In this document: one piece after another, positions 11,725-35,804 of the stretch
Numbering within the stretch: position 1 is the first letter of the stretch
Layout: each line of letters begins with the position of its first letter
Assembly (NCBI GenBank): GCA_963971285.1
Contig: OZ020259.1
Span: 5,146,001 to 5,210,000, forward strand
DNA from: Astropecten irregularis
Lineage: Eukaryota; Echinodermata; Asteroidea; Paxillosida; Astropectinidae
Length of the DNA: 64,000 bases
Direction of reading: 5' to 3'
The notes under the pieces: generated by a model
The model's database searches: none
The model's input: the letters and a program-made list of their open reading frames with translations, nothing else
What the model was told of the DNA's origin: nothing
Program-made: the position numbers and the translations under genes

Positions 11725-11842
11725 AGTAGGGAGAGAATCCCAATGCTTGCCCAATTGAGCTTTTGATGTTCAAGTCTGGGCTGGGCATAATAAAAAAAAT
11801 CGGAAAAAATTGAAAAAATTAAATAATATTATTTTATATTAT
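11725..11842 (+). repeat. Left terminal inverted repeat of the Maverick
   Basis: 118 bp starting AGTAGGGAGAGAATCCC. It matches the reverse complement of 28450-28567 with about three differences, all in the A-rich stretch near 11800-11820. The inner end carries the polymerase gene's promoter-like motif. Confidence 0.96.
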
Positions 11843-11854
11843 AATAAAAGGATA
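11828..11854 (+). promoter_or_regulatory. Promoter-like AT motif of the polymerase gene
   Basis: TTATATTATAATAAAAGG ends 4 bases before the ATG at 11855. Most of it lies inside the terminal repeat, so the right terminal repeat carries the same motif. Confidence 0.5.
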
Positions 11855-14800
11855 ATGACTGATCAAACAACGAATCAGCAAACGACAGAGCAGATGGCTA
11901 GGCCAATTATTGCAAAGGGGTTTAGCCATTGGACAAAAGATAACTTAAAACATTTTGTTGAAGAAACCAAAATTCCAATAGAAGATCCAGAAACGGATTT
12001 TACTAAAAGTGAATATATTAATGCTATTACACGCAGACAACCAACCCCGCGTGGGTATAAAAGATGGGATTATTTAAAATTAAAAAATTATGTTCAAGAT
12101 AATAATATTAGGTTAGATTTATCTAAAAAGCTCGATCACACTAGACGTGAATATATCAAAGCAATTAAAACGTTTACAAATCAATTTAAAAATTTAATAA
12201 AGAAAGATAATCAAGAACTTAGAGAATTAGCTAGAAAATATAACCTCAATGTTGTTCCAACGGGTCAAAGAGGACAAGTAATAAAACGAGATTATATCAA
12301 AACGATTAAAGAAAATTTATCATCGGAGGAAATTCGTGAAGCGACAAACTGGAGAGAAGTGAGATCTTTTCGTGGTAATCTTATAAATTTAGAAATAATT
12401 CTTCAAAGACAATATTCCGATCTAAATACATTTTTTAAACATCAGCATAAAAATATGATTAAAGAAGTAACAAAGATCTTTAGAAAAAAAGGTCAATTTA
12501 AGCTTGAATTTAGGATAAAACTCGAATATATAAAAGTTGAAGTTTTGGATGAAACATTACATGATTTTACTTTTCGAACCGAACAACATATTATTTTAAG
12601 GGAAGATGAAATAAATGAAAAGGTTAATAGCATTTTGTTCGAGCTAATAAATGTAGTGGAATCAAAAGATTTTGGACCCTCGGGTTTAACTTTAAATAAA
12701 ATATTAGCGTTTTATATGAACTTTATTAAATATACCAATGTTTCTGGTAGTTCATATATTGAACTTACGCCATTTATTAAACATAAAAAGGCTGTTGTTA
12801 GCGTACAAAATGACGACGATCAATGCATTAGATGGGCTATCAGATCTGCGTTAGGGTTATACAAGGATGAAATCAAAGAAAAGAAAAAAAATAACCCGAA
12901 ATACAGAATTCACGATGAAAGAGTCAGTACTTATAAGTTAAATGATGGGTTAGACTTTACCGGTATAGATTTTCCAACACCCTTAAAGCAGATTTCTAAA
13001 ATAGAAAAACAAAATAATTTAAATATTAACGTGTTTGGGTTAGATTGTAATGATGAAAAAGAAGAATTTCCTTATCCATCACATATCTCTAAAGAAACAA
13101 ACGACATTCACATAAATCTATTATTATTTACTAGAGAAGTAGAAGAAGAAGGAGAAAAAATAATAAAAAGTCACTATGGTTGGATTAAGAATTTTTCGGC
13201 CCTATTCAGCAATGGTACATGTAAAGATGGGCATAAATTATATTTTTGTTACAGATGTCTATCGCATTTTTATACACCCCAAAAATTAAAAATTCACGAT
13301 GAAATATGTCAAGGATTAACCGTTCATCCTTCAAGAGTCATCCTTCCAGAAGAAGATAAAAATATTTTAAAATTTAAAAACTTTAAAAATTTTCAAGATG
13401 CACCGTTTGTGATTTACGCGGATTTTGAATGTATTTTAGAAAAATACAATGTAGAAAAGATGAAAAAAACTCAAAAGTTGAGCGTTCATAAACCCAGTGG
13501 TTATTCTTATGTTGTGGTAAGATTTGATGGAAAACTAATGAAGCAAAAAACCTATAGAGGGTGTAACGCTAGCGAGCATTTAATTAATTCATTGTTAAAA
13601 GAACAACGTAAAATTAATCAAATATTTAATAATCCTATACCGATTGAAGAGATCGACGAATCATTAATGATGAGTAACGAGTGTTGGATTTGTGAAAAGG
13701 AAATATATCAAACTAGCGTTTTATATTGTAATTGTGAGATACCTCGTGAACCCAAAACCAAATCCGAAAAAGAAGAAAACGCGGTCACAAACAGTAAAGG
13801 TTATACAGATTTTTTGTGTTTAGAATGCGGTAAAAAAATTAATAAATTTAGAAAAGTTAGAGATCACTGCCACATCACGGGTAAATTTAGAGGAGTTACA
13901 CATGCACATTGTAACCTAAAACTTAAAATAACAAATCGAACACAAATACCGGTTATTTTTCACAATTTTAAAAATTACGACGGTCATTTGATCATGCAGG
14001 GGGTAAGCGCTTACGTCGAAACGTTAAATAATAAAATAAAAAAACGTGAAACGTGTATAGAAAAAATCAAAACGCGTATAGAAAAAATCGAAGTGTATAA
14101 AGAAAAACTCGAAACCCAAGAAATAAAACTCCGCAAAAAAATTAGATACATAAAAGAAAAACGTGAAATTTTTAACGAGTTTCGTCGAAATATAAGAAAA
14201 GGTGATAATTCAAAAATAAAAACGTTTGAAGAAAAATACGGAATTACATTCGATAAGAAACTTAATATAAAAATTAACCAAAAAGCAAACAAAAGCGAAC
14301 GTTGTAATAGAGAAAAAATAAAACTAATTAATCAAAAACTAAAAATAATCGATGAAAAAATAAATGTTAAAATCGATAAACTAAAAGAGGTTTTAAGTAT
14401 ATTAAATTATTATCAAAAAGAAAAAAACGTATTCGATAATATATTTTGTATTCCTCAAAACTCGGAAAAATACATAAGTATTAGTATAGGTCAACTCCGT
14501 TTTATAGATTCGTTAAATTTTATGAACTCTTCCTTAGAAAAATTAGTCGCTGCTTGCCCTAAAGACGCATTTCATTTATTTAGAAAACATTTTAAAGATT
14601 ATAATACGGATGATGTTGATCTTTTATTAAAAAAGGGGTGTTATCCATACGAATATATGGATTCCTTTGATAGATTTAAAGAAACTAAATTACCACCCAT
14701 TGAAAAGTTTTATAGTAAGATAAAACTCAAAGGTATTACGCGAGAAGAATATACTCACGCGGAGTTGGTTTGGAAAACTTTCAACTGTAAAACTCTAGGT

Positions 14801-16444: not shown

Positions 16445-17448
16445 AGTTCTTCTTTCACAAACGATCGTTTGGGTCCGTCTTTTAAGTAATAAAGCGTAGG
16501 ACCTGTAGTAACTTTTTTACCACTCATGATTTTAAATTGACTCGTTCTTTTTTCAATTTGATACATGTTAACGCTCCATATGGGATCGGTAGCCCTCCTC
16601 ACCGTACCTCCTTCTTGTTCCCCTGGTTGATATAAATAACGAACTAAAACATTAGTCGGAAGATCACTAACGTTTGTTTTTTGTGGTGATGAGGGTAATT
16701 GTTTAACCCGTTTTAACTTGATCGCTTGCGTAGGAGTGATTTCTTTATCTTTTGAATCTCGAATCAATCGTGTTGTTTCTTCATTGAGGGATTTTATAAC
16801 CTGGGGCAACCTCACCACCCATTCGACGTTTCTCGCCTGCGGATCAAGCATTTCTTGCACGTATTGATGACCGAATAATCTTTCGGCTAAGGTTCGGTTA
16901 AATCTTTCAACCACTCCTTGCGATCGATGCACACCCGGCACACCTACGCTGATCTCTACGCCATGAGACTGAAACAACTTTTTAAAATCTCCTTTAAATT
17001 CTGTTCCAGCATCGATTTGCGCTAATTTAGGCCACGTTAAAGGCGAACGCTTGTAAATTTTAATAATCGCGTCTTTCACTTGACCGGCAACTTTAGAAGT
17101 TATGGGTTCAGCCTCTTTATACCGACTCGCCACGTCTATGACCGTCAACGCGTATTTAAACGTTTTTTGTTTAACTAGATCCCAGGGTAAGTATAATATA
17201 TCTAACTGATGTACGTAATTTGGTTCTAACCAATCACTCGACATTGCCGTCGGCCTGGGTACATATGAGGGAGGTGGTAAATAAATTTGCCAAACGGCTT
17301 GTTTTTTTAACCAAGATCTAACTTTTTGTTTATCAACCCCCGTTTTTTTATGCAAATGCGTGACAGCACCCTCACCTTTCCAATAACCTTTAGGACTGTA
17401 AAACAAACCTGAAAGCTGTTCTCTTTGTTTTTTATTTAACTCACTCAT
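16405..17448 (-). CDS. int: RVE-family integrase, 347 aa
   Basis: Retrovirus-like DDE integrase that inserts the element and makes the 6-bp target duplication. An N-terminal helix-turn-helix-like region (about 20-55) precedes the catalytic core. D83 lies in HQLDILYLP, D146 in AQIDAGTEF and E181 in SQGVVERFN, giving the expected spacing. The C-terminal 80 residues form an SH3/chromo-like tail with KIMSGKKVTTGPTLYYLKD. I start at 17448 (MSELNKKQ) because it lies 7 bp after the stop of the upstream gene and follows an AT-rich promoter-like stretch; the frame is open further upstream but overlaps that gene. Its 3' end overlaps the polymerase gene tail to tail. Confidence 0.93.
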   Translation of the reverse strand: MSELNKKQREQLSGLFYSPKGYWKGEGAVTHLHKKTGVDKQKVRSWLKKQAVWQIYLPPPSYVPRPTAMSSDWLEPNYVHQLDILYLPWDLVKQKTFKYALTVIDVASRYKEAEPITSKVAGQVKDAIIKIYKRSPLTWPKLAQIDAGTEFKGDFKKLFQSHGVEISVGVPGVHRSQGVVERFNRTLAERLFGHQYVQEMLDPQARNVEWVVRLPQVIKSLNEETTRLIRDSKDKEITPTQAIKLKRVKQLPSSPQKTNVSDLPTNVLVRYLYQPGEQEGGTVRRATDPIWSVNMYQIEKRTSQFKIMSGKKVTTGPTLYYLKDGPKRSFVKEELQIVPDDTELPES

Positions 17449-17470
17449 TTTTATTTTATACATATCTATA
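17449..17470 (-). promoter_or_regulatory. Promoter-like AT motif of the integrase gene
   Basis: Minus strand reads TATGTATAAAATAAAA directly before the ATG at 17448, overlapping the end of the preceding gene. This supports the short start. Confidence 0.4.
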
Positions 17471-17878
17471 AATAAAGAATCCCACTGCGGCTGTACCACC
17501 TAATACCCACACGAGTTCTCTAATTTGTTGATCATCACTCGGAGTATAAAAGTCACTAAGTTTTGGTTTAGGTGGTAATTCTAAATCGTAATTTTCACCC
17601 GTTATTTCGCTGTACACTCTAAGCGCTTCGTTTACGTTACTAAACGTTCTTTCTGATAATTTTTGTTGTATCATACGTTTATTCAAATAATCTAGATATT
17701 TAACGCGTTGTTGTTCCCAATCTTCTTTGGCTTGCGCTAATTTTTCTAATGCTAAGTCGTGTCTTTTTCGTTCTTTGTCAATTTGTTGTTTTGATAAACT
17801 ACTAAATAAAAAGTTACTACCGGTAAACGCTAACGCATTAACTACTGCCCCGCCAACCATCATTGCTATTCCTGCCAT
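17456..17878 (-). CDS. Maverick small membrane/coiled-coil protein, 140 aa
   Basis: Function unknown. Residues 3-22 are hydrophobic and glycine-rich (GIAMMVGGAVV), residues 30-75 are a charged predicted coiled coil, and residues about 119-137 form a second hydrophobic segment ending in a basic tail. The product could be a membrane or inner-capsid component. It is divergent from the major capsid gene with a shared 57-bp intergenic region, and lies 7 bp upstream of the integrase start, so the two are probably cotranscribed. The ATG at 17878 follows a TATAAATAAAAAG motif. Confidence 0.75.
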   Translation of the reverse strand: MAGIAMMVGGAVVNALAFTGSNFLFSSLSKQQIDKERKRHDLALEKLAQAKEDWEQQRVKYLDYLNKRMIQQKLSERTFSNVNEALRVYSEITGENYDLELPPKPKLSDFYTPSDDQQIRELVWVLGGTAAVGFFIYRYV

Positions 17879-17935
17879 CTTTTTATTTATACTAATTTAA
17901 AAACCTTATATATTAAAAACACACTATTTTGAACT
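17879..17935. promoter_or_regulatory. Divergent promoter region between the 140-aa gene and the major capsid gene
   Basis: On the plus strand CCTTATATATTAAAAAC lies 15 bp before the capsid ATG. On the minus strand TTAGTATAAATAAAAAG ends at the ATG of the 140-aa gene. Both match the element-wide motif. Confidence 0.55.
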
Positions 17936-19195
17936 ATGAATCATTACGGTAAAAAACTAAACCCAATGAGGCGTCTTAAAATCCCTAAAGCCATTAAAGG
18001 CGAACGAAGAGAAGTGTCAATCACTCATAATCCAAGCACGATTGCGGCTGGTCAAAAACTCATCGTTAAGTTTCCGCAATTAGGACCCGACGATGTTATC
18101 GTACCCGGTACTTCTAAACTCGCTTTTAAACTCGAGTTAGAAGGGTCTGATAATAATCGAACGGTGTTTAACAACTTATGTCGTAACTTAATACGCGAAA
18201 TCAATGTTAGGCTTCAAGGTAACACAATCGTGAGTTATCGCGATGCGGATGTCTTTCACAATTTTAAAGATAACTGGCTGCACCCCTACATTACACGAAA
18301 TATGGCCTATGTAGGCCTTGAAAAAGAAAACGTCACAAAATTAAGATTAGGCGCGGCAGATGCTAATGCTGAAACTAATAGCGGAAAAGATAAAGCTATC
18401 GCAGACGCGTTTGGTAATCGATATTGTATTCCTTTAGATATTGAGCTTTTAACGGCACATCATCCTTTTTATCCTAGCAGTCTAAAGCAGCCCCTGACGT
18501 ATGAATTAACATTTAACGATCACGATAAAGTCGTTAATAGCTCGGATACAAGTGCCCAATATTCAATTTCAGATTTAACGCTTGAATACGAAGTCGTCAC
18601 TAACCGAGATTTGACACAAGAGCTAAAAAACAAACGAATGAAATACTATCTTTTTGATCACGTACATAATTTAGAAACAAGATCGATCAACAAATCAGAT
18701 ACCTTATGGAACGTTATGATTAATCAACCGATTAAAAGTCTCAAAGGCGTTTTAATCTTATTTAGAGACCCAACTGTAAAAAAACCTCAAAGATTTTACA
18801 ACCCCCACATTAGCAAAACCAGCATTACGGTTGAAGGAAAACCCAATCAACTTTATTCTCAAGGTATGTTTGAGTATCAGCACTGGCAAGAAGTTAATAA
18901 ATTTTTTGGTGATAGTGATACCGAAAATGGTCAATCGATTGTAAAAGATTTAAATTTAGTGGGCCTAGAAATGGCTGACTACTATAAAGATAAATACGGC
19001 CTGTGGCTAGATTTTCGCTCAACTGATGATAATAGTGCTCACGGAAGTGGAAGACGTTTAAACGACGGAGGAGGAATTCAGATTCAGATGACTCGAGAGG
19101 CTGAAACAGCGGGAGATTTAACGATGTTTGTATTTTTGGTCATGGATGCGCAATTAACCATTGAGGATGGAAATTTTAAGAATTTAGTTTTTTAA
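17936..19195 (+). CDS. Major capsid protein, double jelly-roll type, 419 aa
   Basis: Predicted to form the trimeric capsomers of an icosahedral particle. No enzymatic motif is present. Features I recall from Polinton major capsid proteins: an N-terminal strand region with KFPQLGPDDVIVPGT, RNLIREINVRLQGN, a YCIPLDIELL...PFYPSSL block near 160-185, a long central strand-rich region, KSLKGVLILFRDP near 280, and PNQLYSQGMFEYQHWQEV near 300-320. It starts at the only sensible ATG after the shared promoter region and is followed 16 bp later by the packaging ATPase gene, the usual morphogenesis pair. Assignment rests on recalled family pattern and context. Confidence 0.82.
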   Translation: MNHYGKKLNPMRRLKIPKAIKGERREVSITHNPSTIAAGQKLIVKFPQLGPDDVIVPGTSKLAFKLELEGSDNNRTVFNNLCRNLIREINVRLQGNTIVSYRDADVFHNFKDNWLHPYITRNMAYVGLEKENVTKLRLGAADANAETNSGKDKAIADAFGNRYCIPLDIELLTAHHPFYPSSLKQPLTYELTFNDHDKVVNSSDTSAQYSISDLTLEYEVVTNRDLTQELKNKRMKYYLFDHVHNLETRSINKSDTLWNVMINQPIKSLKGVLILFRDPTVKKPQRFYNPHISKTSITVEGKPNQLYSQGMFEYQHWQEVNKFFGDSDTENGQSIVKDLNLVGLEMADYYKDKYGLWLDFRSTDDNSAHGSGRRLNDGGGIQIQMTREAETAGDLTMFVFLVMDAQLTIEDGNFKNLVF

Positions 19196-19211
19196 AAGCT
19201 TATTAAAATAA
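19191..19211 (+). promoter_or_regulatory. Promoter-like AT motif of the ATPase gene
   Basis: AAAAGCTTATTAAAATAA runs up to the ATG at 19212 and overlaps the capsid stop region. Confidence 0.45.
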
Positions 19212-19817
19212 ATGGAATCTTGTCATTGTGCTTTAATTGTAGGAAAAACAAACTCGGGAAAGACTAAATGGATTTTAGATTTATTGGAAACCGAATATCG
19301 TGGTAAATTTGAATCGATCGTGGTCATTTGCCCGACCTTATTTAAAAATAAAACTTATTTATCGAGGCTTTGGATATCAATGGATGAAAATGTATATTTG
19401 TGTGATTTAGACTTTGAAAAAATAACTTTAAATGAAGCCCTAGATTTGTATCAAAATATTTTAGATGGAATAAAAACATTATTTATCATAGATGATTGTT
19501 CGAGTCAGCAGGAAATAAAATATCGAAAAAAAACATGTGCGTTGAGCAAAATCGCTTTTTCTGGGAGGCATTATAACCATAGCTGTTGGTTATTAACACA
19601 AAAGTATAATTCGGTTTTAAAAGACTATCGTGAGAATACAAGTTGGGTTGCGATGTTTTATACAAAAGATAAAACGAGTTTTGATATTGCATTAGATGAA
19701 AATGATGTTGTGTGTGATCAAAAAAGAGACGTAATTAAAAAACATTTGTGCGATAAAAAATATAGTAAATTGGTTATTAACACAGAACCTCCAGTTTCAT
19801 ATCAAGTTTTTGATTAA
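19212..19817 (+). CDS. A32-like genome-packaging ATPase (FtsK/HerA superfamily), 201 aa
   Basis: Predicted to pump the element's DNA into preformed capsids using ATP. Walker A is GKTNSGKT at residues 11-18, Walker B is LFIIDD at 90-95, and a downstream LLTQKYNS motif near 131 matches the polar sensor region of this family. Length and lack of extra domains fit virophage and Polinton ATPases, which are shorter than FtsK. It directly follows the major capsid gene. Confidence 0.93.
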   Translation: MESCHCALIVGKTNSGKTKWILDLLETEYRGKFESIVVICPTLFKNKTYLSRLWISMDENVYLCDLDFEKITLNEALDLYQNILDGIKTLFIIDDCSSQQEIKYRKKTCALSKIAFSGRHYNHSCWLLTQKYNSVLKDYRENTSWVAMFYTKDKTSFDIALDENDVVCDQKRDVIKKHLCDKKYSKLVINTEPPVSYQVFD

Positions 19818-19830
19818 CAACCTAATTTTT

Positions 19831-20086
19831 GTTATCATTTGTTGTATTTTGTTAAAAATTTGCTAATAACTAACTATCAAGTTATTTATAGCAATTTTTA
19901 ATTTTGTTATAAATAAAAAACACCAATGCTACAATACGTTGATGTTATTATTAAGTTTGTTATCATTTGTTGTATTTTGTTAAAAATTTGCTAATAACTA
20001 CCTATCAAGTTATTTATAGCAATTTTTAATTTTGTTATAAATAAAAAACACCAATGCTACAATACGTTGATGTTATTATTAAGTTT
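19831..20086 (+). repeat. 128-bp tandem duplication with an internal stem-loop
   Basis: Two copies, 19831-19958 and 19959-20086, differ at about one position (AACTAACTATC versus AACTACCTATC). Each holds a stem-loop, AAAAATTTGCTAATAACT paired with AGTTATTTATAGCAATTTTT, followed by T-rich sequence, then TTATAAATAAAAAACACCAATG. The first ATG opens a 22-codon frame; the second opens a frame that runs into the next gene. It may be a transcript end for the ATPase gene. Confidence 0.85.
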
Positions 20087-20140
20087 GTTATCACTTTAAA
20101 CTTAAGCTACTTATGTTATAATTTATTTTGCTTTAACAAA

Positions 20141-20164
20141 ATTTATAAGTTGTTATATAGTAAA
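20141..20164 (+). promoter_or_regulatory. Promoter-like AT motif deciding the start of the 204-aa gene
   Basis: AAGTTGTTATATAGTAAA ends at the ATG at 20165, which supports that start over the in-frame ATG at 20054. Confidence 0.5.
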
Positions 20165-20779
20165 ATGAACGACTTGACAACAATTATAAATAGCGATGTA
20201 AATACACCTTCAACAACAAACGACAGTAGTTATAAAGATCGACTTTGTGGCATAGTTGCAGCAGGTGATTCAAAAAAATATTTAGGTAAAGAATACACCA
20301 TCAAAGACATAGAAGCACTAACACCTGCAGATCAAGAAAAATTATTTAACCGGTATCAAGTTAAATTCGGTAAAGAAGTGGTAGCTACAGTGGGTAACTC
20401 AATTTTGAGTTTGTATGCACGAGCTATAGGTTTAGCAACTCCGGCTGATATTTTAGGAATTAGAATTAGCTTAAATTCTGAGGAAAATTTAACCAATGAT
20501 TTAAATAACGATCCTATCATTAGTAATAGCTTAGCTTATGCACTTAGCGAGGTTTGTTACAAATATGGTGTCTATCTATCACCTTTGATAGCAACACTTA
20601 TTACCACAAAACATTTAAACTTTAACAAATCCACAACAAATAAAAATACTTATATAATAAATAATTCAAATGACAACTATGCATCAGGAGAAGGAGCAAG
20701 CTTTACCAACAGCACCCCCAACAACAGCACCAGCAGCACCAACACCGATACCAACAACCCCAGTGACGCAAGTAACTAA
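20165..20779 (+). CDS. Maverick protein of unknown function, 204 aa
   Basis: Not recognised. Residues 1-25 are Ser/Thr/Asn-rich. Residues 25-150 look globular and mostly helical, with YKDRLCGIVAAGDSKKYLG and a hydrophobic stretch SLAYALSEVCYKYGVYLSPLIATLI. The C-terminal 50 residues are a low-complexity Asn/Ser/Thr tail. An in-frame ATG at 20054 would add 37 hydrophobic residues encoded partly by the 128-bp duplication; I prefer 20165 because the element's promoter motif abuts it. The last 110 bp overlap the next gene in another frame. Confidence 0.65.
   Translation: MNDLTTIINSDVNTPSTTNDSSYKDRLCGIVAAGDSKKYLGKEYTIKDIEALTPADQEKLFNRYQVKFGKEVVATVGNSILSLYARAIGLATPADILGIRISLNSEENLTNDLNNDPIISNSLAYALSEVCYKYGVYLSPLIATLITTKHLNFNKSTTNKNTYIINNSNDNYASGEGASFTNSTPNNSTSSTNTDTNNPSDASN
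20648..20669 (+). promoter_or_regulatory. Promoter-like AT motif inside the 204-aa gene
   Basis: ACTTATATAATAAATAATTC closely matches the motif before the 450-aa gene (GTGTATATAATAAATAATTA). It lies inside the upstream coding sequence and ends at the ATG at 20670. Confidence 0.5.
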
Positions 20780-21077
20780 AAAACAAACCGTAAAACCTAA
20801 AAACGCTAAACGCGTTGAACAAGGTAAACGCCTAGCAGAACATAATAAAAAAATGAAAGAGCAATTAGCTAAAATGAAAACAGAAGAGACAGAGTCGGAG
20901 ATTATTCAAAATACCCCTGATTCGAGATTACTTTATGTTGGCGGTTTAATTTTAGTAGGCGGTATAGGTTTTTTATTGTATAAATCATTAAACAAATCAC
21001 CAGAAAACTCTAAACCTATTCAAATAACAAAACCAAGTCTACCACAGAGTCAACCCGAAGAACTTTTAATGGATTGA
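20670..21077 (+). CDS. Maverick single-pass membrane protein with Pro/Ala/Thr-rich N-terminus, 135 aa
   Basis: Function unknown. Residues 10-35 are rich in Pro, Ala and Thr. Residues 36-75 are strongly basic and helical (KKQTVKPKNAKRVEQGKRLA), suited to nucleic-acid contact. Residues about 87-107 form a Gly-rich membrane segment (LLYVGGLILVGGIGFLLYKSL), and a short polar tail follows. A basic, membrane-spanning capsid-lining protein is one possibility, by analogy only. The start overlaps the end of the 204-aa gene by 110 bp and carries its own promoter-like motif. Confidence 0.65.
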   Translation: MTTMHQEKEQALPTAPPTTAPAAPTPIPTTPVTQVTKKQTVKPKNAKRVEQGKRLAEHNKKMKEQLAKMKTEETESEIIQNTPDSRLLYVGGLILVGGIGFLLYKSLNKSPENSKPIQITKPSLPQSQPEELLMD

Positions 21078-21080
21078 TTT

Positions 21081-21102
21081 TTTAAATGTTTATATATTAA
21101 AA
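21081..21102 (+). promoter_or_regulatory. Promoter-like AT motif of the 36-aa gene
   Basis: TTTAAATGTTTATATATTAA, then AA and the ATG at 21103. It is one of the cleanest copies and supports the reality of this very short gene. Confidence 0.55.
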
Positions 21103-21213
21103 ATGGATGAAACAACCGTAAATGATATTGCCGCCGCAGTTTATATTTGTGTTTTAATAGCAGCAGTCACCATTGGCTTTCCCTTTTATCAATCTTTAAA
21201 AAAAGGGAACTAA
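21103..21213 (+). CDS. Maverick mini membrane protein, 36 aa
   Basis: The ATG at 21103 opens 36 codons to TAA at 21211-21213. The product has a short acidic N-terminus (MDETTVND), a hydrophobic helix of about 20 residues (IAAAVYICVLIAAVTIGFPF) and a basic tail (KKGN), the layout of a single-pass membrane protein. Its clean promoter-like motif and the 29-bp gap to the next gene support it. Function unknown. Confidence 0.55.
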   Translation: MDETTVNDIAAAVYICVLIAAVTIGFPFYQSLKKGN

Positions 21214-21220
21214 TTTAAAT

Positions 21221-21242
21221 TTTAAAAACTTATATAGTAAGA
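21221..21242 (+). promoter_or_regulatory. Promoter-like AT motif of the 84-aa gene
   Basis: TTTAAAAACTTATATAGTAA then GA and the ATG at 21243. Confidence 0.55.
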
Positions 21243-21497
21243 ATGGCAAATACAAATATTGATATAAACGGAATAGCAAACACAGTTTATCATGGTGCAG
21301 TGTTAAGCCTTTTAACCATGGGATATTCGATGGTAAGTAAAAAATTACTAAAAATTAAATCGCCTGATTTAGATAGGCTTAGCGTAGAAGATGCGGCTAA
21401 ACTAACCGCATTAGTCGGAGGTTCTTTAGCAACGCAACAGTGGTTGGTCACACAGGGAATCTTACCGGGTAGTATTATAAATAAACCTACAGTTTAA
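21243..21497 (+). CDS. Maverick small hydrophobic protein, 84 aa
   Basis: Function unknown. Two moderately hydrophobic segments (about 18-36 and 50-73) flank a charged loop with KKLLKIKSPDLDRLSVEDAA. It lies in a run of four closely spaced same-strand genes for small membrane or coiled-coil proteins, so a role in the particle or in membrane interaction is plausible but unproven. Confidence 0.65.
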   Translation: MANTNIDINGIANTVYHGAVLSLLTMGYSMVSKKLLKIKSPDLDRLSVEDAAKLTALVGGSLATQQWLVTQGILPGSIINKPTV

Positions 21498-21523
21498 AAT
21501 GTGTATATAATAAATAATTAAAG
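21494..21523 (+). promoter_or_regulatory. Promoter-like AT motif of the 450-aa gene
   Basis: AAAATGTGTATATAATAAAT, then AATTAAAG, ending at the ATG at 21524. It overlaps the stop of the 84-aa gene. Confidence 0.5.
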
Positions 21524-22876
21524 ATGGATGATGTTGATTATCAAGAGACTGATCCCCTGTTAAATGAAACAGAAGATAGAGACGATCAACAATTTAACAA
21601 CCCCGTTTATGATAATACCGAACTCGATTCTGAAGAAAATCAAGCTCGATTAAATAATTTACGAGGTGGTGATGCACAAGAACAACAAGAGGAATTAAGA
21701 GCTCTTCGTAATGGTGAAAATGTTTTTCTCTCGTTTCAACTTCAAAAGCAGTACATTGATAATTTTTATGCTAGCATAAGAAGTGAAGGTTATAAAACTT
21801 TTGATTCAATTCAACGCGAAAACTTTAGATTTGAAAAGGATGGAATATATTACGAAAAAGATGGAATTAAAATAAAATTAACGTTGGAAAATGATCATAA
21901 AAAAATTGCTTCTGTGAATACAATATATTCTAGAACAAAAGATAAAGGAATTAAATATAGATCTAGTTTTATGCGAAACGATTTAGGAATTGTTGATTTT
22001 AAAACATCAAAACGCAGCAAAGAAGCAAGCGCAGCGCTTCAACAAGCAAGTACATCTTTAACTCATATTCAAAGTGAAAACATATCCTTACAAGATTTAT
22101 CACAAGCAGCTGATCAAACGATTAATGTTATAGGAGAACTTGAACAAGAAACCAACATTGATGAACAAAGTGAATTTAATATCAGAGAGCTACGCGGTTT
22201 AGACAAAACATTACAATCGCTTAAAGCAAATTTATTATTGGAACAATCAAAGCTAACTGAGTTAAATGAGACAAAAGAAAGAGTTAAAAAAAAATTAAAC
22301 GAAGCAAAAAAAGCAGAAGATGAAGAACAAATAGGATCACTCACAGAAGAGTTAGAAAATATAAACATTGAAATACGAGAAAGGTCTAATAATATCATTA
22401 GAGAATCAGATAAAATAAAATCTCAAATCAATCGCGTCAAAGAAACAATCAATATAATGTTAGACAGTGATGTAACGCTTAGAGAAAAAATTAAGTTTTT
22501 ATTTAAAGAGCAAGGTGTCACGATCGCGAGTATTTTAGCAGCAATTTCTATGGCCATCAGCACACTGGTAAGCTCGGTGGTAGCAGCCGTTAGAGGTGTA
22601 GGTATCCCAACCCCAGAACCACCCGCGCCTAAACCTGAGCCACCATCAGGAGGTGGCATCAAAGAGTGGGTACACAAGCACTTGGAAAACTTAGCAAACG
22701 CTTTGAAAAAATTAGGGTTAGCCGCATTAGGTGCGCTGCCGGGGGTCATTGGTAGCGTCATAAGTTGGTTACTAAATGTTTTAAGTAAATCAGTTGGCTG
22801 GCTAGCAGAACACGTGTGGGCTTTATTTATAGGTGCAGGTGCTTTAATTATTGCTTATATTAAAAATAATTGGTAG
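21524..22876 (+). CDS. Maverick coiled-coil/membrane protein, 450 aa
   Basis: Function unknown. Acidic N-terminus (residues 1-45), then LRGG-D at 46-50, which fits the adenovirus-type protease consensus (M/I/L)-x-G-G. A folded region of about 60-165 is followed by long predicted coiled coils (about 170-310). The C-terminus has hydrophobic segments at about 331-357, 394-420 and 430-450 separated by a Pro-rich linker (PTPEPPAPKPEPP). The layout suggests a membrane-anchored structural or membrane-active protein. The stop is followed by a T/A hairpin and then the strong hairpin at 22910-22937. Confidence 0.72.
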   Translation: MDDVDYQETDPLLNETEDRDDQQFNNPVYDNTELDSEENQARLNNLRGGDAQEQQEELRALRNGENVFLSFQLQKQYIDNFYASIRSEGYKTFDSIQRENFRFEKDGIYYEKDGIKIKLTLENDHKKIASVNTIYSRTKDKGIKYRSSFMRNDLGIVDFKTSKRSKEASAALQQASTSLTHIQSENISLQDLSQAADQTINVIGELEQETNIDEQSEFNIRELRGLDKTLQSLKANLLLEQSKLTELNETKERVKKKLNEAKKAEDEEQIGSLTEELENINIEIRERSNNIIRESDKIKSQINRVKETINIMLDSDVTLREKIKFLFKEQGVTIASILAAISMAISTLVSSVVAAVRGVGIPTPEPPAPKPEPPSGGGIKEWVHKHLENLANALKKLGLAALGALPGVIGSVISWLLNVLSKSVGWLAEHVWALFIGAGALIIAYIKNNW

Positions 22877-22900
22877 TTTTGTTTTTTAACAAAATAATTA

Positions 22901-22948
22901 AAAAAAATAACCCCCAAGCTCTTTTGAGCTTGGGGGTATTTTTTTTGT
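22901..22948. terminator. Bidirectional hairpin terminator-like element
   Basis: A perfect 12-bp stem, ACCCCCAAGCTC and GAGCTTGGGGGT, with a TTTT loop (22910-22937), flanked by A8 on the left and T8 on the right. Each strand therefore reads hairpin then T-run. It lies exactly between two convergent genes. It resembles a bacterial intrinsic terminator or the palindromic transcript ends of giant viruses and virophages. Confidence 0.75.
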
Positions 22949-22966
22949 TTAAATATTTATATTTTT

Positions 22967-24226
22967 CTAAGTCAAAATTTTGTAGACTAAAACTCCTATC
23001 GCAATGATTGCAACTGTTCCTATCGTTAAAGATAATTTTTCATCTTGATGAATGTCTAAAGATGCTTTAGGATTTGACTCTGAGGTTTTAGGTATAGGTG
23101 ATAAATGTGGTGTAGGTTCTTCTGTTGGTTCTTGAGTGGGTTTGGGTTCAAGGGTTGGCTGAGGATCAAAGTCATCAACTTGTATCGGAGCGTTTAAGGT
23201 TGGTTGAAATCCCGGTTTAGCGGTTAAAGGTGCAATTTGCAAGTTATTATTGTAACCATCGTGTATGCCTACCCTTAAATCCATATCTGACGGAATGAGG
23301 TATAACCCGGGTCTTACGACAAAGTTGAGTGGAGTTTTAGCATACTGCAGTGAATCTTGAAATTGATTGATACTTTGCTCTAAATCTGGTTCGCTATTAA
23401 TAAGACTTTCTACGATGGTAACAAACTGATGCTGCGCATCTAAACCGGTTCCCGGGGTTAATGCACTGGTTTTTGTTTGTGCTTGTGCACCTAAAAGCGC
23501 GTACACGTAAGCCCTAATCGATTCGTTAATTTTTGTAATTCCAACATCGGTAAAAGAACTCGTCTTTGAAATAAAGTCTGTCCAAGCACCTAAAACATTA
23601 TTGGATTGTTCAAGGTAAGTGACCGTATAGGTACTCGCGTGACCCGATCCTTTTGGTGGATCCATTAAACCAAATCCCATAAAAGTTGAGCCTGCATACG
23701 TACCGTAGTTTACACCCAAGTCGTGGGGGTCATAGTTTTTCCCCGGCACTGGAACCGACCCCGAATTGTAGTAAAAAGCAGTACCCAAGCCATTTGAGGT
23801 CGTATCTCTCGTTTGTTTAAAAGACTTGCTTCGATCGATGCCAAATACGCGGCACGTGTCCGTAAAAGCTCTCGTATCATAACGGTTATTTAACGCGTTA
23901 AATACATCATCACCAGGTATAGGTGCTACCAAATTATAAAATATTTTTCGTATAGTATAATACACGTGAAAATGAAACAGCGATGAAATATATTGGTTTT
24001 TATTGTGGAGGAGGTCAAGACCTACTCCACACGCGGTCGTGGCACAATAAATCGCAAAGTTGAATTGGTTTTGATAAAAGGACAAAGGGTTAGTTTGCCA
24101 TCGTTCGATTGCTTCGTCCGTTTTAACGCGTGGTAATTTATACGCGGTTGACATATCTTTAAATTGTACAAAAAAAGTATTATTTTTATTGACGATAATA
24201 GCTAAAGCGCCTAAAGAGTTTCCCAT
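22967..24226 (-). CDS. Maverick-conserved protein with C-terminal membrane anchor, 419 aa
   Basis: Function unknown. I recall the N-terminal pattern (FAIYCATTACGVGLDLL...FHVYYTIRKI, NNRYDTRAF) from uncharacterised proteins of other invertebrate Mavericks; this is memory, not a search. Residues 1-350 look globular. Residues about 360-390 form a Pro/Glu/Thr-rich stalk and about 398-419 a membrane helix (IGTVAIIAIGVLVYKIL). A tail-anchored virion or membrane protein fits. It is divergent from the putative penton gene and convergent with the 450-aa gene. Confidence 0.7.
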   Translation of the reverse strand: MGNSLGALAIIVNKNNTFFVQFKDMSTAYKLPRVKTDEAIERWQTNPLSFYQNQFNFAIYCATTACGVGLDLLHNKNQYISSLFHFHVYYTIRKIFYNLVAPIPGDDVFNALNNRYDTRAFTDTCRVFGIDRSKSFKQTRDTTSNGLGTAFYYNSGSVPVPGKNYDPHDLGVNYGTYAGSTFMGFGLMDPPKGSGHASTYTVTYLEQSNNVLGAWTDFISKTSSFTDVGITKINESIRAYVYALLGAQAQTKTSALTPGTGLDAQHQFVTIVESLINSEPDLEQSINQFQDSLQYAKTPLNFVVRPGLYLIPSDMDLRVGIHDGYNNNLQIAPLTAKPGFQPTLNAPIQVDDFDPQPTLEPKPTQEPTEEPTPHLSPIPKTSESNPKASLDIHQDEKLSLTIGTVAIIAIGVLVYKILT

Positions 24227-24265
24227 TTATAATATAAGTCTTTTTATAATAAAAGTAGAGTAAGA
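24227..24265. promoter_or_regulatory. Divergent promoter region between the anchored protein and the putative penton gene
   Basis: The minus strand reads GACTTATATTATAA up to the ATG at 24226. The plus strand reads CTTTTTATAATAAAAGTAG before the ATG at 24266. Only 39 bp separate the two starts, so both promoters must lie here. Confidence 0.6.
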
Positions 24266-25456
24266 ATGAGCGGAATACAACACACATTTTATTTGACAAA
24301 AAACGAACAAACGTTTAAATTGCAAGAGGTGATTGATAATTTAGATGGCTCAAAACAAATTCGCGTTAAAAATCTCGTGTTTACGGTAGGCTATTTTAAC
24401 ATAACTAAATCTAGTGAGATTACTTGGGAAAAGGATATAGATGGGCAACCCGCTTATACTAACGGTAGGCCTAGAGACAATAGACAAACTGATAAAAGCT
24501 CACAACTACAGACAAAGCCATTAGAACTGACCCCTGAGATAATGAATCAATTTCGTTTATCGATGACAACTGAAGAAATTCAACAAAGCAGAAAAGAAGT
24601 CATAGCACGCATTATTACACAGATGTTTGACGGATATGATACTGAAATTCTTAACGAAGTGGAAATAAAAATACAAGAAGAAATACAGGTCCTCAGACAA
24701 CGAAAACAAACCCTAGAATTAGCCAGGGATAGACTTGATGATGAATTACAAAATGAAGTTAACTATGTAATACATTTATTAAATAAAAGAATAGACTATA
24801 TCATAGAAGGCCAAGTATTAGCCACAAATTTACTTCGATATGGATACAACAATGACAATCAAGAAAAAACAGAAAATATGCGTTTACCACAAATTAAAAA
24901 CAGCCTCGTTGTTTTAGGACATAAAGAGCCAATCGTAAATGCACTACATCCGGTGAGTGAGGTTACGGCTTTGCCTGAGGGCAAATCAGGAAGCATCATT
25001 ATTTTACCTGGATTTTATGGTATCGATTGGTTCGAGTCATTGATAAACGCGATACCGGGTGTGAGCTTTAAAGTCTATAGAGAAAGTAAAACGGTGACCT
25101 TAAGGGTCACTGATATAAACCTTAATCTACGTTTAAATCGAGAAGTTTCTAATTTACTCAATTTACCCAAAGGAAGGTTAATCCCAAATGTCATTTATAA
25201 GGGTGATTACGATATTAACCCATTTAACATTACGTTTATTCATTGCGAGCAGTTAAACACGAGTGATAATTTTTACAACGGGTTTCCTTCAAATATGTTA
25301 TCATTTTATCACACAAGCCAAACAAACCAAACTCACGTTGGGAAAACATTAAAAAACGGTAAAATTAATAAACTTGCCTTTTCAATTAAAAACGAGGAAG
25401 GAAAAATCATCAATAACAAAGGCGCGGGGATTTTAATCGAATGTGAAATAATTTAA
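24266..25456 (+). CDS. Putative minor capsid (penton-like) protein, 396 aa
   Basis: Probable vertex protein of the particle. It begins with a motif I associate with Polinton penton-like proteins (QHTFYLTKNEQTFKLQEV). The C-terminal 200 residues are strand-rich with SIIILPGFYGIDWFESLINA, NLLNLPKGRLIPN, HCEQLNTSDNFYNGFPSNML and INKLAFSIKNEEGKIIN, ending on a hydrophobic strand. A charged helical segment of about 90-195, likely coiled coil, interrupts the strand-rich parts and seems additional to the family core. Assignment rests on recalled pattern and linkage to capsid genes; an internal structural protein is the alternative. Confidence 0.55.
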   Translation: MSGIQHTFYLTKNEQTFKLQEVIDNLDGSKQIRVKNLVFTVGYFNITKSSEITWEKDIDGQPAYTNGRPRDNRQTDKSSQLQTKPLELTPEIMNQFRLSMTTEEIQQSRKEVIARIITQMFDGYDTEILNEVEIKIQEEIQVLRQRKQTLELARDRLDDELQNEVNYVIHLLNKRIDYIIEGQVLATNLLRYGYNNDNQEKTENMRLPQIKNSLVVLGHKEPIVNALHPVSEVTALPEGKSGSIIILPGFYGIDWFESLINAIPGVSFKVYRESKTVTLRVTDINLNLRLNREVSNLLNLPKGRLIPNVIYKGDYDINPFNITFIHCEQLNTSDNFYNGFPSNMLSFYHTSQTNQTHVGKTLKNGKINKLAFSIKNEEGKIINNKGAGILIECEII

Positions 25457-25477
25457 AAACGCTTATATATTAAAAAT
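25455..25477 (+). promoter_or_regulatory. Promoter-like AT motif of the 223-aa gene
   Basis: AAAAACGCTTATATATTAAA then AAT and the ATG at 25478. A consensus-quality copy. Confidence 0.55.
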
Positions 25478-26149
25478 ATGGCAACCGTAAATGTAAATGA
25501 AATAAAACCTTTATATCCTGATCTAAACTTAAACAGCGGTGATGATATTAAAGACGAAACTAAAATTTATCGACTTCAAAAAATTGAAGATATTAAATCT
25601 CTAATCTGTAAAGAAAGAAACTCGCGCGAGGTTTCTTTTAAAAAGTTAAAAAGGTGGATCTCTGCGATTCAATATGTAGAGCACGGGGTTGAAGTACTGG
25701 GGGTCACTGCAGCCGCGATAGGGATCCCCGCATTAATGGGTGTTATTAGTGCCCCAATTGGCTTAGTCTTAGAGGGGACTAGCATAGGTGCCTTTGGATT
25801 TTACGCGGTACTTAAATACGCAAGCAAAAAATTAACGGTAAAGAGTAAAAAACACGATCAGATTAAAATTTTAGCAGATGCAAAGTTAAACACGATAGAT
25901 GAATACGTGTCAAAAGCCATCGAAGATGGTGATATTTCTCACGAAGAATTTATATTAATTACGTCAGAACTTAAAAAATTTAACGACTTGAAAGAAAAAA
26001 TAAGATTAAAAACTTCTACAAAGTTAGAAGAAGCTAAACATTTAAATAAAGTTGAATTTGAACGACAAGTTGAAGAAAAGGCTAAAGCGATGGCGAGTGA
26101 TTTACTCGCCAAAGAAAAAAAAGAGCTTATGAAAAAACTTGGAAATTAA
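25478..26149 (+). CDS. Maverick helical/membrane protein, 223 aa
   Basis: Function unknown. N-terminal 60 residues are polar and helical (YRLQKIEDIKSLICKERNSR). Residues about 70-115 form a long Gly/Ala-rich hydrophobic region that could cross a membrane twice. Residues 120-223 are charged and helical, with ISHEEFILITSELKKFNDLK and a coiled-coil tail. I recall similar proteins beside capsid genes in other invertebrate Mavericks. It lies 22 bp after the putative penton gene with its own promoter-like motif, and is convergent with the TFIIB-like gene. Confidence 0.68.
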   Translation: MATVNVNEIKPLYPDLNLNSGDDIKDETKIYRLQKIEDIKSLICKERNSREVSFKKLKRWISAIQYVEHGVEVLGVTAAAIGIPALMGVISAPIGLVLEGTSIGAFGFYAVLKYASKKLTVKSKKHDQIKILADAKLNTIDEYVSKAIEDGDISHEEFILITSELKKFNDLKEKIRLKTSTKLEEAKHLNKVEFERQVEEKAKAMASDLLAKEKKELMKKLGN

Positions 26150-26227
26150 GTTTAAGTTTGACAAAGTCGTTTAAAAACGAGGAGAGTAAACCTCCGAGTT
26201 ATAAAGAAAGTCAAGCGAGAGTTAGCC

Positions 26228-26659
26228 CTACGGCTCCTCCTCTTTAAAAGTTTCGTTGTATCTTTTTAACGCTTGATTAAAATATTTTAATTCTACTTGA
26301 AATAACTTTTGTACTGTTTCTTGGGTTACGTTAGAAACATTTTTTAGATAACATACAGCCATTAACGACCTGAGTGGATGACCCCTAGATATTTTTCCCT
26401 TTAATATTTGTTTTAATTTAAACTCGACGAGTTTAAGGTCACACATTTGGTATTGAATGTTAAATTTATCAAAGACTTTTTTTACTATAGAAGCCTTTGT
26501 TTTTTTATAGAAAAATCTCTGATTATACTTTCCATTAATATTTTCCGTAGAATAATCCATGAGACTATAACCTATAATTAATCCACACTTGTTGCAATAA
26601 TACTCGTCTTTGTCTTCATCAATCATGATGTTGTGAGTGCACATACCTATCTCATCCAT
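26228..26659 (-). CDS. TFIIB-like transcription factor, 143 aa
   Basis: Predicted to recruit RNA polymerase to promoters. The N-terminus is a TFIIB-type zinc ribbon: C7-x-H9 and C22-x2-C25, followed by GLIIG as in the CGLVVG of TFIIB. The C-x-H spacing differs from the C-x2-H of cellular TFIIB and resembles viral versions. Residues about 55-135 are helical with a cyclin-like pattern (HPLRSLMAVCYLKNV...TVQKLFQVELKYFNQAL), enough for one cyclin repeat where cellular TFIIB has two. The gene is short but open and starts right after a TATAAATGG-type motif. It could act on the element's own AT-rich promoters; that link is inference. Confidence 0.7.
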   Translation of the reverse strand: MDEIGMCTHNIMIDEDKDEYYCNKCGLIIGYSLMDYSTENINGKYNQRFFYKKTKASIVKKVFDKFNIQYQMCDLKLVEFKLKQILKGKISRGHPLRSLMAVCYLKNVSNVTQETVQKLFQVELKYFNQALKRYNETFKEEEP

Positions 26660-26680
26660 TTATATTTAAAAAAAAAATTA
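26660..26680 (-). promoter_or_regulatory. Promoter-like AT motif of the TFIIB-like gene
   Basis: Minus strand reads TTTTTTTTTAAATATAA directly before the ATG at 26659. It is a weaker copy of the motif. Confidence 0.35.
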
Positions 26681-26873
26681 ATTAATTATTATTTTTTTTT
26701 TTTTACTGAATCATTTTTTTTTTCACCCAATACTTTACTCAGAATGCGTGGGCGTTTTTATAAAGAGTGTAAAGGGGCCGGGGTCTATGCCTTAAACTCA
26801 TCAAAGAGGGCCAACAACACTATTGACCCCCTTTTTTGGGGTACCGGGTTCAAAGTTTAAAGGTTTTTTTTTT

Positions 26874-27067
26874 CATGTTTTTTTATGTCAGGATATTGTT
26901 TTTTATGTTTCTTATTAAATATCACCCCAAATATTCAACGAGAAACATTTTTTCTTTTTCTATTTTTTTTCATGTTTTTTTATGTCAGGATATTGTTTTT
27001 TATGTTTCTTATTAAATACCCACATCAAATATTCAACGAGAAACATTTTTTCTTTTTCTATTTTTTA
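26874..27067 (+). repeat. 97-bp tandem duplication in the Maverick
   Basis: Two copies starting at 26874 and 26971, each opening CATGTTTTTTTATGTCAGGA and containing TATTCAACGAGAAACATTTT. They differ at a few positions (ATCACCCCAA versus ACCCACATCA). Confidence 0.85.
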
Positions 27068-27098
27068 TTCATATTTTTTGTTATGTTAATTTCAATTT

Positions 27099-27170
27099 TA
27101 CAGACCGTGTGTCGAACCCGGTACCCTGTGGTTGCAAACCGCCGAGCTTATCCACTGAGCTATCCCCCAG
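27099..27170 (-). other. tRNA-like remnant inside the Maverick
   Basis: Minus strand reads GGGGGATAGCTCAGTGGATA, then a TTTGCAA loop (an alanine TGC anticodon if read as tRNA) and GGGTTCGAC. The anticodon stem has mismatches and the 3' acceptor side does not pair with the 5' side. A decayed tRNA or a tRNA-derived SINE head is more likely than a working gene. Confidence 0.4.
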
Positions 27171-27558
27171 CCCCGACTGAAAATGGTTTTTTAATTTGAT
27201 ATATATTATATTCGAAATGGTGCAATAACAACGATGATGACACAAAGGACGAGTCTATTTTTTGAGGGGTGTTTGACTGTGATTGTGACGGTTTACACAG
27301 GTTCAGTCATGTGTTATATTTCAATAACAAACCCGAGTGCTTTTAGGAATTTAAACCTTTGTGTCAGCGGATGACTAAGCGTTTTACACTACGTTCAGTC
27401 ATGAATGAAATTTGAATAACAAAAACCCTGTTTACGCTGGGGACAACCACGCGTGACATTGAATGGCTGTTTTTTTCAAGCGAGTGTTGTGTATACACTT
27501 AAGGTAAATAACCTTTAGTGCATTGTCAAGTGCATATGAGTAGTGCACATGCATACGA

Positions 27559-27600
27559 CGTAAAAAAAAAAAGCCACATCCTAATTTGGATGTGGCTTAA
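27559..27600 (-). terminator. Hairpin terminator-like element after the ssDNA-binding-like gene
   Basis: A perfect 11-bp stem AAGCCACATCC and GGATGTGGCTT with a 6-nt loop (27571-27598). On the minus strand it is followed by about 11 T's. It lies about 70 bp beyond the stop of the minus-strand gene ending at 27669, the position expected for a transcript end. Confidence 0.7.
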
Positions 27601-27668
27601 TTTAGTGTGTAAATAAAAATGATAATTTTTTTGTTATTTTTTTTGGCTTTCTTTTTTATATTCTAGAT

Positions 27669-28439
27669 TTAGTCATCAATATCTTCAATATCAAACATGA
27701 CATTAGTGGGGATTTGTATAGTTTCATATTGCCTAATAAAAGCTTGTTCTAATTTAAATCTGATACTTGCACCAAATCCACTATTTCCATGAGAACCAAA
27801 AAATATATCATTACAGATGAGAACAGGTGTAACTTTACATGATTTATTCATATATTCATCGATGTTATCAATCTTTTTCTTTTTAAAATCAAACAATTTT
27901 GTATATTGTTTTAATTGATTTCCTTTTCCATATGATTTAAGTTTAATATACATTTTTTTGTTTTTATCATCATAAATTGGTTTAACACTTTGTTTTCCCA
28001 TGTTTATATACATAGTTCTGGTTATTTTTGGTATATTTTTATCTTTATCAGATTCAATATATTTAGTTACTGTACATCTCATTTTATCAAAGTATTTAAC
28101 AATTTCATCACAATCATTTTGTAAATTATATACAATTTGATAGCCAGTTGTGTTGTCTGGATTTTTTTCTTCACCAAAAGTATTAATTGTATTTATTCCA
28201 AAACAAAAATTTGTTGGTAACATAAAAATTAAATTACATTCTTTATCATCATGTTTATAAGTAATTTTTGATTTAGCACATTCTACTACTTCTTGTGAAG
28301 TTTTAATCGCTGGATTTATTATTAAATTTTTCTCATTAAACAACCCATAATGATTATATTCACTTTTATCTGCGTTTTTATATAGATCATGTTTTTCAGT
28401 TACAAAGTATGTATGTTTTATTGTTTTGTTTTGTTCCAT
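27669..28439 (-). CDS. Putative ssDNA-binding-like protein (giant-virus type), 256 aa
   Basis: Probably binds single-stranded DNA during replication, by resemblance only. The layout recalls the DUF2738/DUF5871-like proteins of nucleocytoplasmic large DNA viruses: LIFMLPTNFCFGINTIN, then GYQIVYNL, a charged helix with EIVKYFDKM, KPIYDDKNKKMYIKLKSYG, KLFDF, and KSCKVTPVLICNDIFFG near the C-terminus. No signal peptide or membrane segment. It is the last gene on the right, pointing inward, with its start 11 bp inside the terminal repeat, mirroring the polymerase gene at the other end. A different family sharing a strand-rich fold cannot be excluded. Confidence 0.5.
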   Translation of the reverse strand: MEQNKTIKHTYFVTEKHDLYKNADKSEYNHYGLFNEKNLIINPAIKTSQEVVECAKSKITYKHDDKECNLIFMLPTNFCFGINTINTFGEEKNPDNTTGYQIVYNLQNDCDEIVKYFDKMRCTVTKYIESDKDKNIPKITRTMYINMGKQSVKPIYDDKNKKMYIKLKSYGKGNQLKQYTKLFDFKKKKIDNIDEYMNKSCKVTPVLICNDIFFGSHGNSGFGASIRFKLEQAFIRQYETIQIPTNVMFDIEDIDD

Positions 28440-28466
28440 CTTATTTATAATAATATAAAATAATAT
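28440..28466 (-). promoter_or_regulatory. Promoter-like AT motif in the right terminal repeat
   Basis: Minus strand TTTTATATTATTATAAATAA, then G and the ATG at 28439. Its outer part is the terminal repeat shared with the polymerase promoter. Confidence 0.5.
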
Positions 28467-28567
28467 TATTTAATTTTCTCATTTTTTCCCGATTTTTTTT
28501 ATTATGCCCAGCCCAGACTTGAACATCAAAAGCTCAATTGGGCAAGCATTGGGATTCTCTCCCTACT
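28450..28567 (-). repeat. Right terminal inverted repeat of the Maverick
   Basis: Reverse complement of 11725-11842 over 118 bp, ending CTCTCCCTACT at 28567. Confidence 0.96.
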
Positions 28568-35312: not shown

Positions 35313-35804
35313 TTACAGGTCTCGGTGAGAGTAAGTAGGCTGCTTGCACACTGCGCGATGAGACAGCCCGCAACGCGCGTCATTCCAATGAGTATCTTCA
35401 CGAATCATAGCACAATCTTCTCCATAAGAGTCATCAGGTTGCCCGTCTGCCCAATTCCTGTAGCTGACATCCACTCCTCCCTCCTCGCACACCCAGGTTC
35501 CCTCGGTCTCCTGATCATTGCAGTCGATCCAAGCTCTCTCCCCGTCCGAAATCACAACGTCCACGATGAAATCATTCTCTTCCAGGGAGCTTGACACGGC
35601 CATAATGCCACCCAACTTGGCGCACTCGGCTCTGGCGCTCGACCAGGTAAACTGGGACTGAGTGAGCATATAACAAGACGTTCCCCAGTGATGCCACTCC
35701 GGAGGGCAGGGTGGACCACGGAGCAGACTCCTACACTTCGCCGAAACTTGAGTGACAGAGCAAGTGGATAAAGCAGCATATGCGATCAAAACTGCAGAAA
35801 ACAT
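35313..35804 (-). CDS. Secreted C-type lectin 1 (QPD type), single exon
   Basis: 163 residues: signal peptide (MFSAVLIAYAALSTC) and one complete C-type lectin domain starting CPPEWHHWGTSCY. WIDCNDQETEGTWVC, the calcium/sugar motif GQPDD and WNDARC near the end are present, with the expected cysteines. QPD generally marks galactose-type binding. I start at the ATG at 35804; the frame extends to 35831 only with a TTG. The coding region is intronless. Roughly 300 bp upstream are conserved with lectins 2 and 5. Likely a secreted immune or coelomic lectin, by family analogy. Confidence 0.85.
   Translation of the reverse strand: MFSAVLIAYAALSTCSVTQVSAKCRSLLRGPPCPPEWHHWGTSCYMLTQSQFTWSSARAECAKLGGIMAVSSSLEENDFIVDVVISDGERAWIDCNDQETEGTWVCEEGGVDVSYRNWADGQPDDSYGEDCAMIREDTHWNDARCGLSHRAVCKQPTYSHRDL

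Follow-up and report, generated by a model that had tools for sequence, protein, structure and literature searches.

The element and its genes

The window, by which the whole analysed stretch of 64,000 nucleotides is meant, holds a 16.8-kb element that is a Maverick on the three features tested, namely two terminal inverted repeats (TIRs, 97% complementary to each other), an rve integrase and an A32-type packaging ATPase (Table 1). The preliminary description had placed the locus in a Maverick, and these features bear it out. The copies to which the element belongs are termed lineage A here and are compared below with two sister lineages, B and C. The gene under study, which encodes a putative TFIIB-like protein (the Maverick TFB, or P0001 among its relatives), lies between the genes g11 and g13.

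Table 1. Features of the element, of its surroundings and of the CTTATATWWTA motif (window positions, unless a locus is named)
Feature	Position	Strand	Remarks
Maverick/Polinton element, lineage A	11725..28567		16.8 kb; TIRs; integrase PF00665 and Pox_A32 ATPase inside
Left terminal inverted repeat	11725..11848	+	124 nt
Motif, 1 mismatch	11833..11843	+	inside TIR, 22 nt 5' of PolB
PolB-like protein, 1529 aa	11855..16444	+	PolB motif YTDTDS, read by eye
Integrase, rve	16405..17463	-	PF00665 E 1.6e-8
Motif, exact	17905..17915	+	31 nt 5' of capsid gene
Probable major capsid protein, 419 aa	17936..19195	+	relatives 42-45% identical in lineages B and C; name tentative
Packaging ATPase	19212..19817	+	Pox_A32 E 3.7e-10
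Motif, exact	20649..20659	+	21 nt 5' of ORF 20670
Motif, 1 mismatch	21229..21239	+	14 nt 5' of ORF 21243
Motif, exact	24228..24238	-	12 nt 5' of ORF 24226-22967
Motif, exact	25462..25472	+	16 nt 5' of g11
g11, left neighbour of TFB	25478..26149	+	also present in lineages B and C
TFB, putative TFIIB-like zinc-ribbon protein, 143 aa	26228..26659	-	ribbon residues 6-39; five predicted helices within 58-138
97-bp tandem repeat, 2.2 copies	26866..27079		upstream of TFB
tRNA-like stretch	~27105..27176	-	between TFB and g13; A-box-like TAGCTCAGTGG, B-box-like GGGTTCGA
g13, right neighbour of TFB, 256 aa, candidate ORF	27669..28439	-	present in one lineage-B element
Right terminal inverted repeat	28444..28567	-	124 nt
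C-type lectin gene, beside the element	35313..35804	-	PF00059 E 1.9e-18
ORF similar to C-type lectin gene	38915..39412	-	by eye
ORF similar to C-type lectin gene	46772..47272	-	by eye
Lineage-C small zinc-finger ORF (MKGKNNCQW...)	L041 2094..2384	+	
Same ORF	L046 7569..7859	-	
Same ORF	L050 7393..7683	-	

The PolB-like protein gave no Pfam polymerase match at E<=1, and an Endonuclease_7-like stretch is found at its residues 637-689 (E 1.9e-4, just below the cut-off). No RNA polymerase was recognised with Pfam among the element's 14 gene products, and g13 found no match in the lineage-C stretches. The tRNA-like stretch listed in Table 1 is present in 34 of the 35 lineage-A records fetched (two of which represent one place) and is recognisable in diverged copies as well. 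It was called neither by ARAGORN nor by Rfam at E<=0.1, its fold was no better than those of shuffles, and it is possibly a Pol III promoter or the remnant of a SINE.

Zinc ribbon and helical part of the Maverick TFB

The frame is intact and a stop codon directly precedes its ATG; the 143-residue protein of the preliminary description was found exactly where it had been placed, its location on the minus strand having been left unstated. The ribbon described there was also recovered, reading C7-x-H9 ... C22-x2-C25 followed by GLIIG. The first cysteine of the canonical ribbon is absent from the window's protein, which has C-x-H in the first knuckle, and the canonical CxxC...CxxC form is found in the relatives P0003 and P0004.

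The best Pfam match of P0001 is the TFIIB zinc ribbon, PF08271 (E 1.7e-4), at 21.5 bits, which does not reach the curated cut-off of 29 bits. PF08271 was matched by six of the 12 TFB family members scanned and every other family by four at most (LysW, Zn_ribbon_9 and others four, A2L three, all weakly). An A2L/VLTF3-type factor was considered as a better label and rejected, the A2L ribbon coming next for P0001 at 15.8 bits against 21.5 for PF08271. Matches to the Pfam families GM_CSF and ORF6N (E 0.06 and 0.3) were rejected as noise, and a sequence search of the PDB with the TFB gave nothing credible.

Scanning the whole 475.7-Mb genome with PF08271 produced 119 matches, of which three host loci of the TFIIB family (L009, L010 and L011) scored above the cut-off. 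L011 matches the 50-kDa subunit of TFIIIB, that is BRF2; L009 and L010 we read as probably BRF1- and TFIIB-like, also in view of matches to the TFIIB repeat on their contigs. The TFB copies rank straight after these three loci, from 25.5 bits downward (23.3 for the window's copy), and the first row belonging neither to a host gene nor to a Maverick, in a list read by eye, stands at 21.6 bits. Moreover, residues 6-39 align over 34 columns (hhalign 81.8%) with a reference profile of 71 TFB frames, nearly all archaeal, taken from 80 fetched loci. The ribbon alone reached 93.1% against this profile (E 3.3e-7), a value attained by none of 150 column permutations, with 0.9% for the reversed profile, and the match continues beyond the ribbon as far as the D..E that closes it. 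Residues 6-39 are a TFIIB-type zinc ribbon, albeit one below Pfam's cut-off, as the preliminary description had proposed.

The part that follows the ribbon is less easily named. In the AlphaFold model of P0001 (pLDDT 60.8, pTM 0.47), three strands are followed by a linker with one short helix and by five helices; that of the relative P0004 (pLDDT 69.1, pTM 0.54) has the same layout with one more strand in the linker, and its residues 101-140 have block mean pLDDT values of 86-92. In these models the number and order of the helices would be compatible with one cyclin repeat. At the level of sequence, PF00382 (the TFIIB repeat) matched none of the TFB copies in the genome, its nine matches all lying elsewhere. 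With a profile of the first TFB repeat, four of eight family members scored above all 250 shuffles of their own sequence, but the reversed sequence scored higher in all eight. With a profile of the second repeat, P0001 and P0002 obtained 1.9 and 1.7 bits, above their reversed forms and equalled by 6 and 8 of 250 shuffles, respectively, while five members did no better than shuffles and P0008 had no score; in these tests the few shuffles without a score were counted as lower. Profile-profile comparison was similar in outcome: for repeat 1, nine of 150 permutations scored as high and the reversed profile scored higher, and for repeat 2, 71 of 150 permutations did so.

The positive controls, which were segments of the host BRF proteins, passed the cyclin-profile tests in five cases out of six: the BRF1 exon and repeat 1 of BRF2 pass with both profiles, and repeat 2 of BRF2 passes with profile 2 and fails with profile 1. 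Two cyclin-like repeats are not found in the Maverick TFB, whose frame ends after 143 aa. A cyclin repeat, and hence full likeness to TFIIB, is not supported by the sequence controls. The 'about one cyclin-like repeat' of the preliminary description was not confirmed by these comparisons, only the number and order of the helices agreeing with it; and the structure prediction that had been suggested there as a check yielded ribbon strands and then five helices in both models, without establishing a cyclin fold.

Copies, lineages and the promoter motif

In the genome, 126 rows match the TFB and merge into 118 loci, 107 of the rows having an uninterrupted frame of at least 143 aa. A TFB lies within 20 kb of 111 of the 112 lineage-A ATPase loci, and at the remaining locus there is a 37-residue remnant at a distance of 21 kb; seen from the gene, 111 of the 118 TFB loci have a lineage-A ATPase, mostly at a distance of 6.5-7 kb. 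A host gene captured once was rejected as an explanation on these counts. No TFB was found near any of the six ATPase loci of lineage B (ATPase 59-63% identical) or the at least 29 of lineage C (46-48% identical; 150 of the 217 candidates had been scored). When the TFB family profile was searched against 1078 frames in 12 stretches, taken from six elements of lineages B and C, the best E was 1.2, and tblastn of the TFB against the B and C stretches gave a best E of 0.62; this last match, over 47 aa of a lineage-C zinc-finger frame, was rejected as chance. Most other genes of the window's element are found in these stretches. The search of other Mavericks that the preliminary description had recommended thus found the gene to be near-universal in lineage A, with no significant relative near 35 ATPase loci of the two sister lineages.

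Among the 35 lineage-A records fetched, which represent 34 places (L017 and L030 overlap), the full 143-aa frame was recovered from 27; four were dropped by filters, two had an altered length and two were broken. Among the 27 frames there are 11 different sequences. In the comparison of the two main TFB clades, dN/dS is 0.16-0.18 (9.5 synonymous and 7.5-8.5 nonsynonymous differences), and on this basis the TFB is under purifying selection; other pairs of the 20 computed reach values up to 1.34, a few having no synonymous difference. Outside the genome, 14 relatives were found at E<=10. Thirteen of these reach E<=1e-9, showing 45-68% identity across 28-100% of the length. P0003, P0010 and other relatives have about 80 additional N-terminal residues, which the window's frame lacks because of the stop directly before its ATG. 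Scans of IMG/VR with the TFB, the capsid protein and the ATPase confirmed no relative. A chance ORF was rejected in view of the 126 genome rows, the dN/dS of 0.16-0.18 and the relatives elsewhere.

Two further observations concern the family as a whole. It is very young and large, with 107 open TFB frames and with many ATPase copies at a (rounded) protein identity of 100%, spread over many contigs. Furthermore, lineage B (L039, L040, L047 and L048) looks mosaic, its PolB being 77-93% identical to that of lineage A depending on the segment, and its capsid candidate and integrase about 44-56%, which suggests an exchange of modules.

The AT-rich motif shared by genes of the element, as put forward in the preliminary description, is confirmed. 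Allowing up to one mismatch, the window contains 22 copies of CTTATATWWTA where 9.9 would be expected, and none of 100 shuffles had as many; each of the four exact copies is placed 12-31 nt 5' of a gene, on its coding strand. Within 45 nt 5' of the start, the motif precedes six of the 14 genes at one mismatch or fewer and four exactly, compared with 0.42 in shuffles. An EM search of the 14 upstream regions returned AT-rich motifs covering several of these sites, which were well above 12 shuffles at width 14 and barely above the best of 12 at width 10, the shuffles having been given fewer restarts. The TFB gene was also said to stand on its own promoter, for which the case is weak: its 45 nt upstream are AT-rich, with an A/T run and AAATATAA before the ATG, but they match the shared motif only at three mismatches; at one mismatch or fewer the motif is absent there.

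In comparing lineages it has to be considered that the pattern was chosen from lineage A. A first sample of the sisters comprised two elements of each lineage, with 8 upstream regions for B and 10 for C, all with unverified starts, and the motif was found in none of them. Counting starts of ORFs of at least 75 aa, the motif stands before 6 of 17 in the window's element, before none of 50 in the lineage-B stretches and before 3 of 142 in those of lineage C, the flanking DNA of the stretches included. All three C cases concern a single small zinc-finger ORF, found in three elements with a one-mismatch copy 15-18 nt before its ATG (Table 1). In addition, a one-mismatch copy lies 22 nt before the start of PolB, whose frame is broken, in the lineage-B element of L048, and the lineage-B stretches hold three exact copies, none of which precedes a visible gene start. 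Across 12 stretches from six sister elements, no exact motif before a gene start was found. In this position the exact motif is seen only in lineage A, but its looser form also occurs outside that lineage.

Possible roles in transcription

The means by which Maverick genes are activated in animal cells are, to our knowledge, still to be established. We tentatively favour, with a little less than even confidence, the reading of the Maverick TFB as a reduced TFIIB-like transcription initiation factor serving its element. The zinc ribbon would dock on an RNA polymerase that uses TFIIB, most likely Pol II of the host; the conserved linker (consensus ENIRGKYNQR..YKKPKPPKT) would be placed where TFIIB has its B-reader and linker; the C-terminal five-helix domain may contact promoter DNA or TBP at motifs of the CTTATATWWTA type; and transcription of the element's genes would begin near their ATGs. 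We infer all of these steps, from the docking on a polymerase and the binding of DNA to activation, as well as any connection of the protein with the motif. A TATA box normally lies about 30 nt before the start site, and most copies of the motif seem unfit as ordinary TATA boxes because their gaps to the start codons are too short.

The shared motif helps the earlier suggestion that the protein may redirect a polymerase to the element's genes, which is weakened because the motif was chosen from lineage A, is missing 5' of the TFB gene and has one-mismatch copies in sister lineages without a TFB. These exceptions in the sister lineages lower the probability both of an initiation factor and of a promoter code. 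Going one step further, a self-encoded, minimal one-lobe TFIIB-like factor and the element's own promoter code, with CTTATATWWTA-type motifs just before start codons, might together constitute a private transcription programme run on a borrowed polymerase, which we hold to be rather unlikely; transcription would then possibly start inside or just after the motif, by analogy with cytoplasmic DNA elements. In yeast virus-like elements, a conserved sequence usually lies 20-40 nt before start codons, according to passages of one source (PMC6211774), a geometry comparable to that of the Maverick motif.

A possible, if doubtful, alternative is that the ribbon and the helices form a DNA-binding regulator, an activator or repressor acting for example on copy number or late genes, which neither replaces nor mimics TFIIB in the preinitiation complex. 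In favour of such a regulator, the sequence supports the ribbon only, the cyclin tests fail, and other zinc-ribbon families also match weakly (LysW, Zn_ribbon_9 and others in four of 12 members, A2L in three); what speaks against it is that P0001 matches the TFIIB ribbon best, that no other ribbon is hit as often in the family, and that the match to TFBs extends to the D..E. The short length also leaves room for a dominant-negative mimic, in which the ribbon with at most one lobe would occupy the host polymerase and damp host transcription: a 143-aa protein lacking room for a second repeat could bind polymerase unproductively, and host TFIIB is reported as a viral target in passages of one source (PMC5927403). 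We regard this as improbable, as a motif common to the element's genes better fits a role in the element's own transcription, and an element with more than 100 germline copies would presumably gain little from a broad shut-off of its host. Finally, the location of the TFB close to the right TIR, flanked by g11 and g13, might suit a passenger gene with a role outside transcription, for example in nucleic-acid handling or packaging; TFIIB-type ribbons are characteristic of initiation factors, and this reading is quite improbable.

Comparable factors exist in cells and in viruses. The Maverick TFB shares with TFIIB and archaeal TFB the N-terminal ribbon and, in the models, the order of ribbon, linker and helices, but differs from them in having no room for two cyclin repeats and in missing the first ribbon cysteine. 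With BRF1 and BRF2, the TFIIB-related factors of host Pol III, it shares the PF08271 ribbon, whereas their segments pass the cyclin-profile controls in five of six tests and the Maverick TFB does not; the host BRF2-like protein likewise scores low with the TFIIB-repeat model (21.9 bits). Virophages are small viruses of wider Maverick relationship. One of them, zamilon, is said in passages of one source (PMC11464507) to depend on the transcription machinery of a giant virus and to encode no transcription factors; the Maverick, by difference, carries a TFB.

Virally encoded TFIIB-type factors are also known in Nucleocytoviricota, TFIIB being among the NCLDV marker genes chosen for near universality, as stated in part of one source (PMC12638062). 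Megavirus encodes eight RNA polymerase subunits of its own (PMC11464507, in the passages concerned), in contrast to none recognised in the Maverick. Atypical viral partners exist as well, VITF-3 of poxviruses being described in a passage of PMC12917281 as an atypical TBP/TFIIB-like pair; the A2L ribbon matches the Maverick TFB weakly, and less well than PF08271 does, and no TBP-like partner was identified in the element. The word 'transcription' is absent from the main text of papers on vertebrate Mavericks (PMC8097293) and Polinton capsids (PMC4028283) and of a survey (PMC11071308). Among the matches listed in open-licence PMC text, none reports a Maverick with a TFIIB-like gene; one paper among them names Maverick, Polinton and TFIIB together, in passages on CroV.

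The Maverick TFB thus appears to represent a familiar type of factor, in reduced form and in a new setting, and not a new category. A TFIIB-like factor carried by nearly all lineage-A copies, together with a shared motif, would make gene activation in Mavericks testable with a 143-aa protein and short promoter DNA. If the reading is true, the Maverick TFB would show how little of TFIIB suffices to work.
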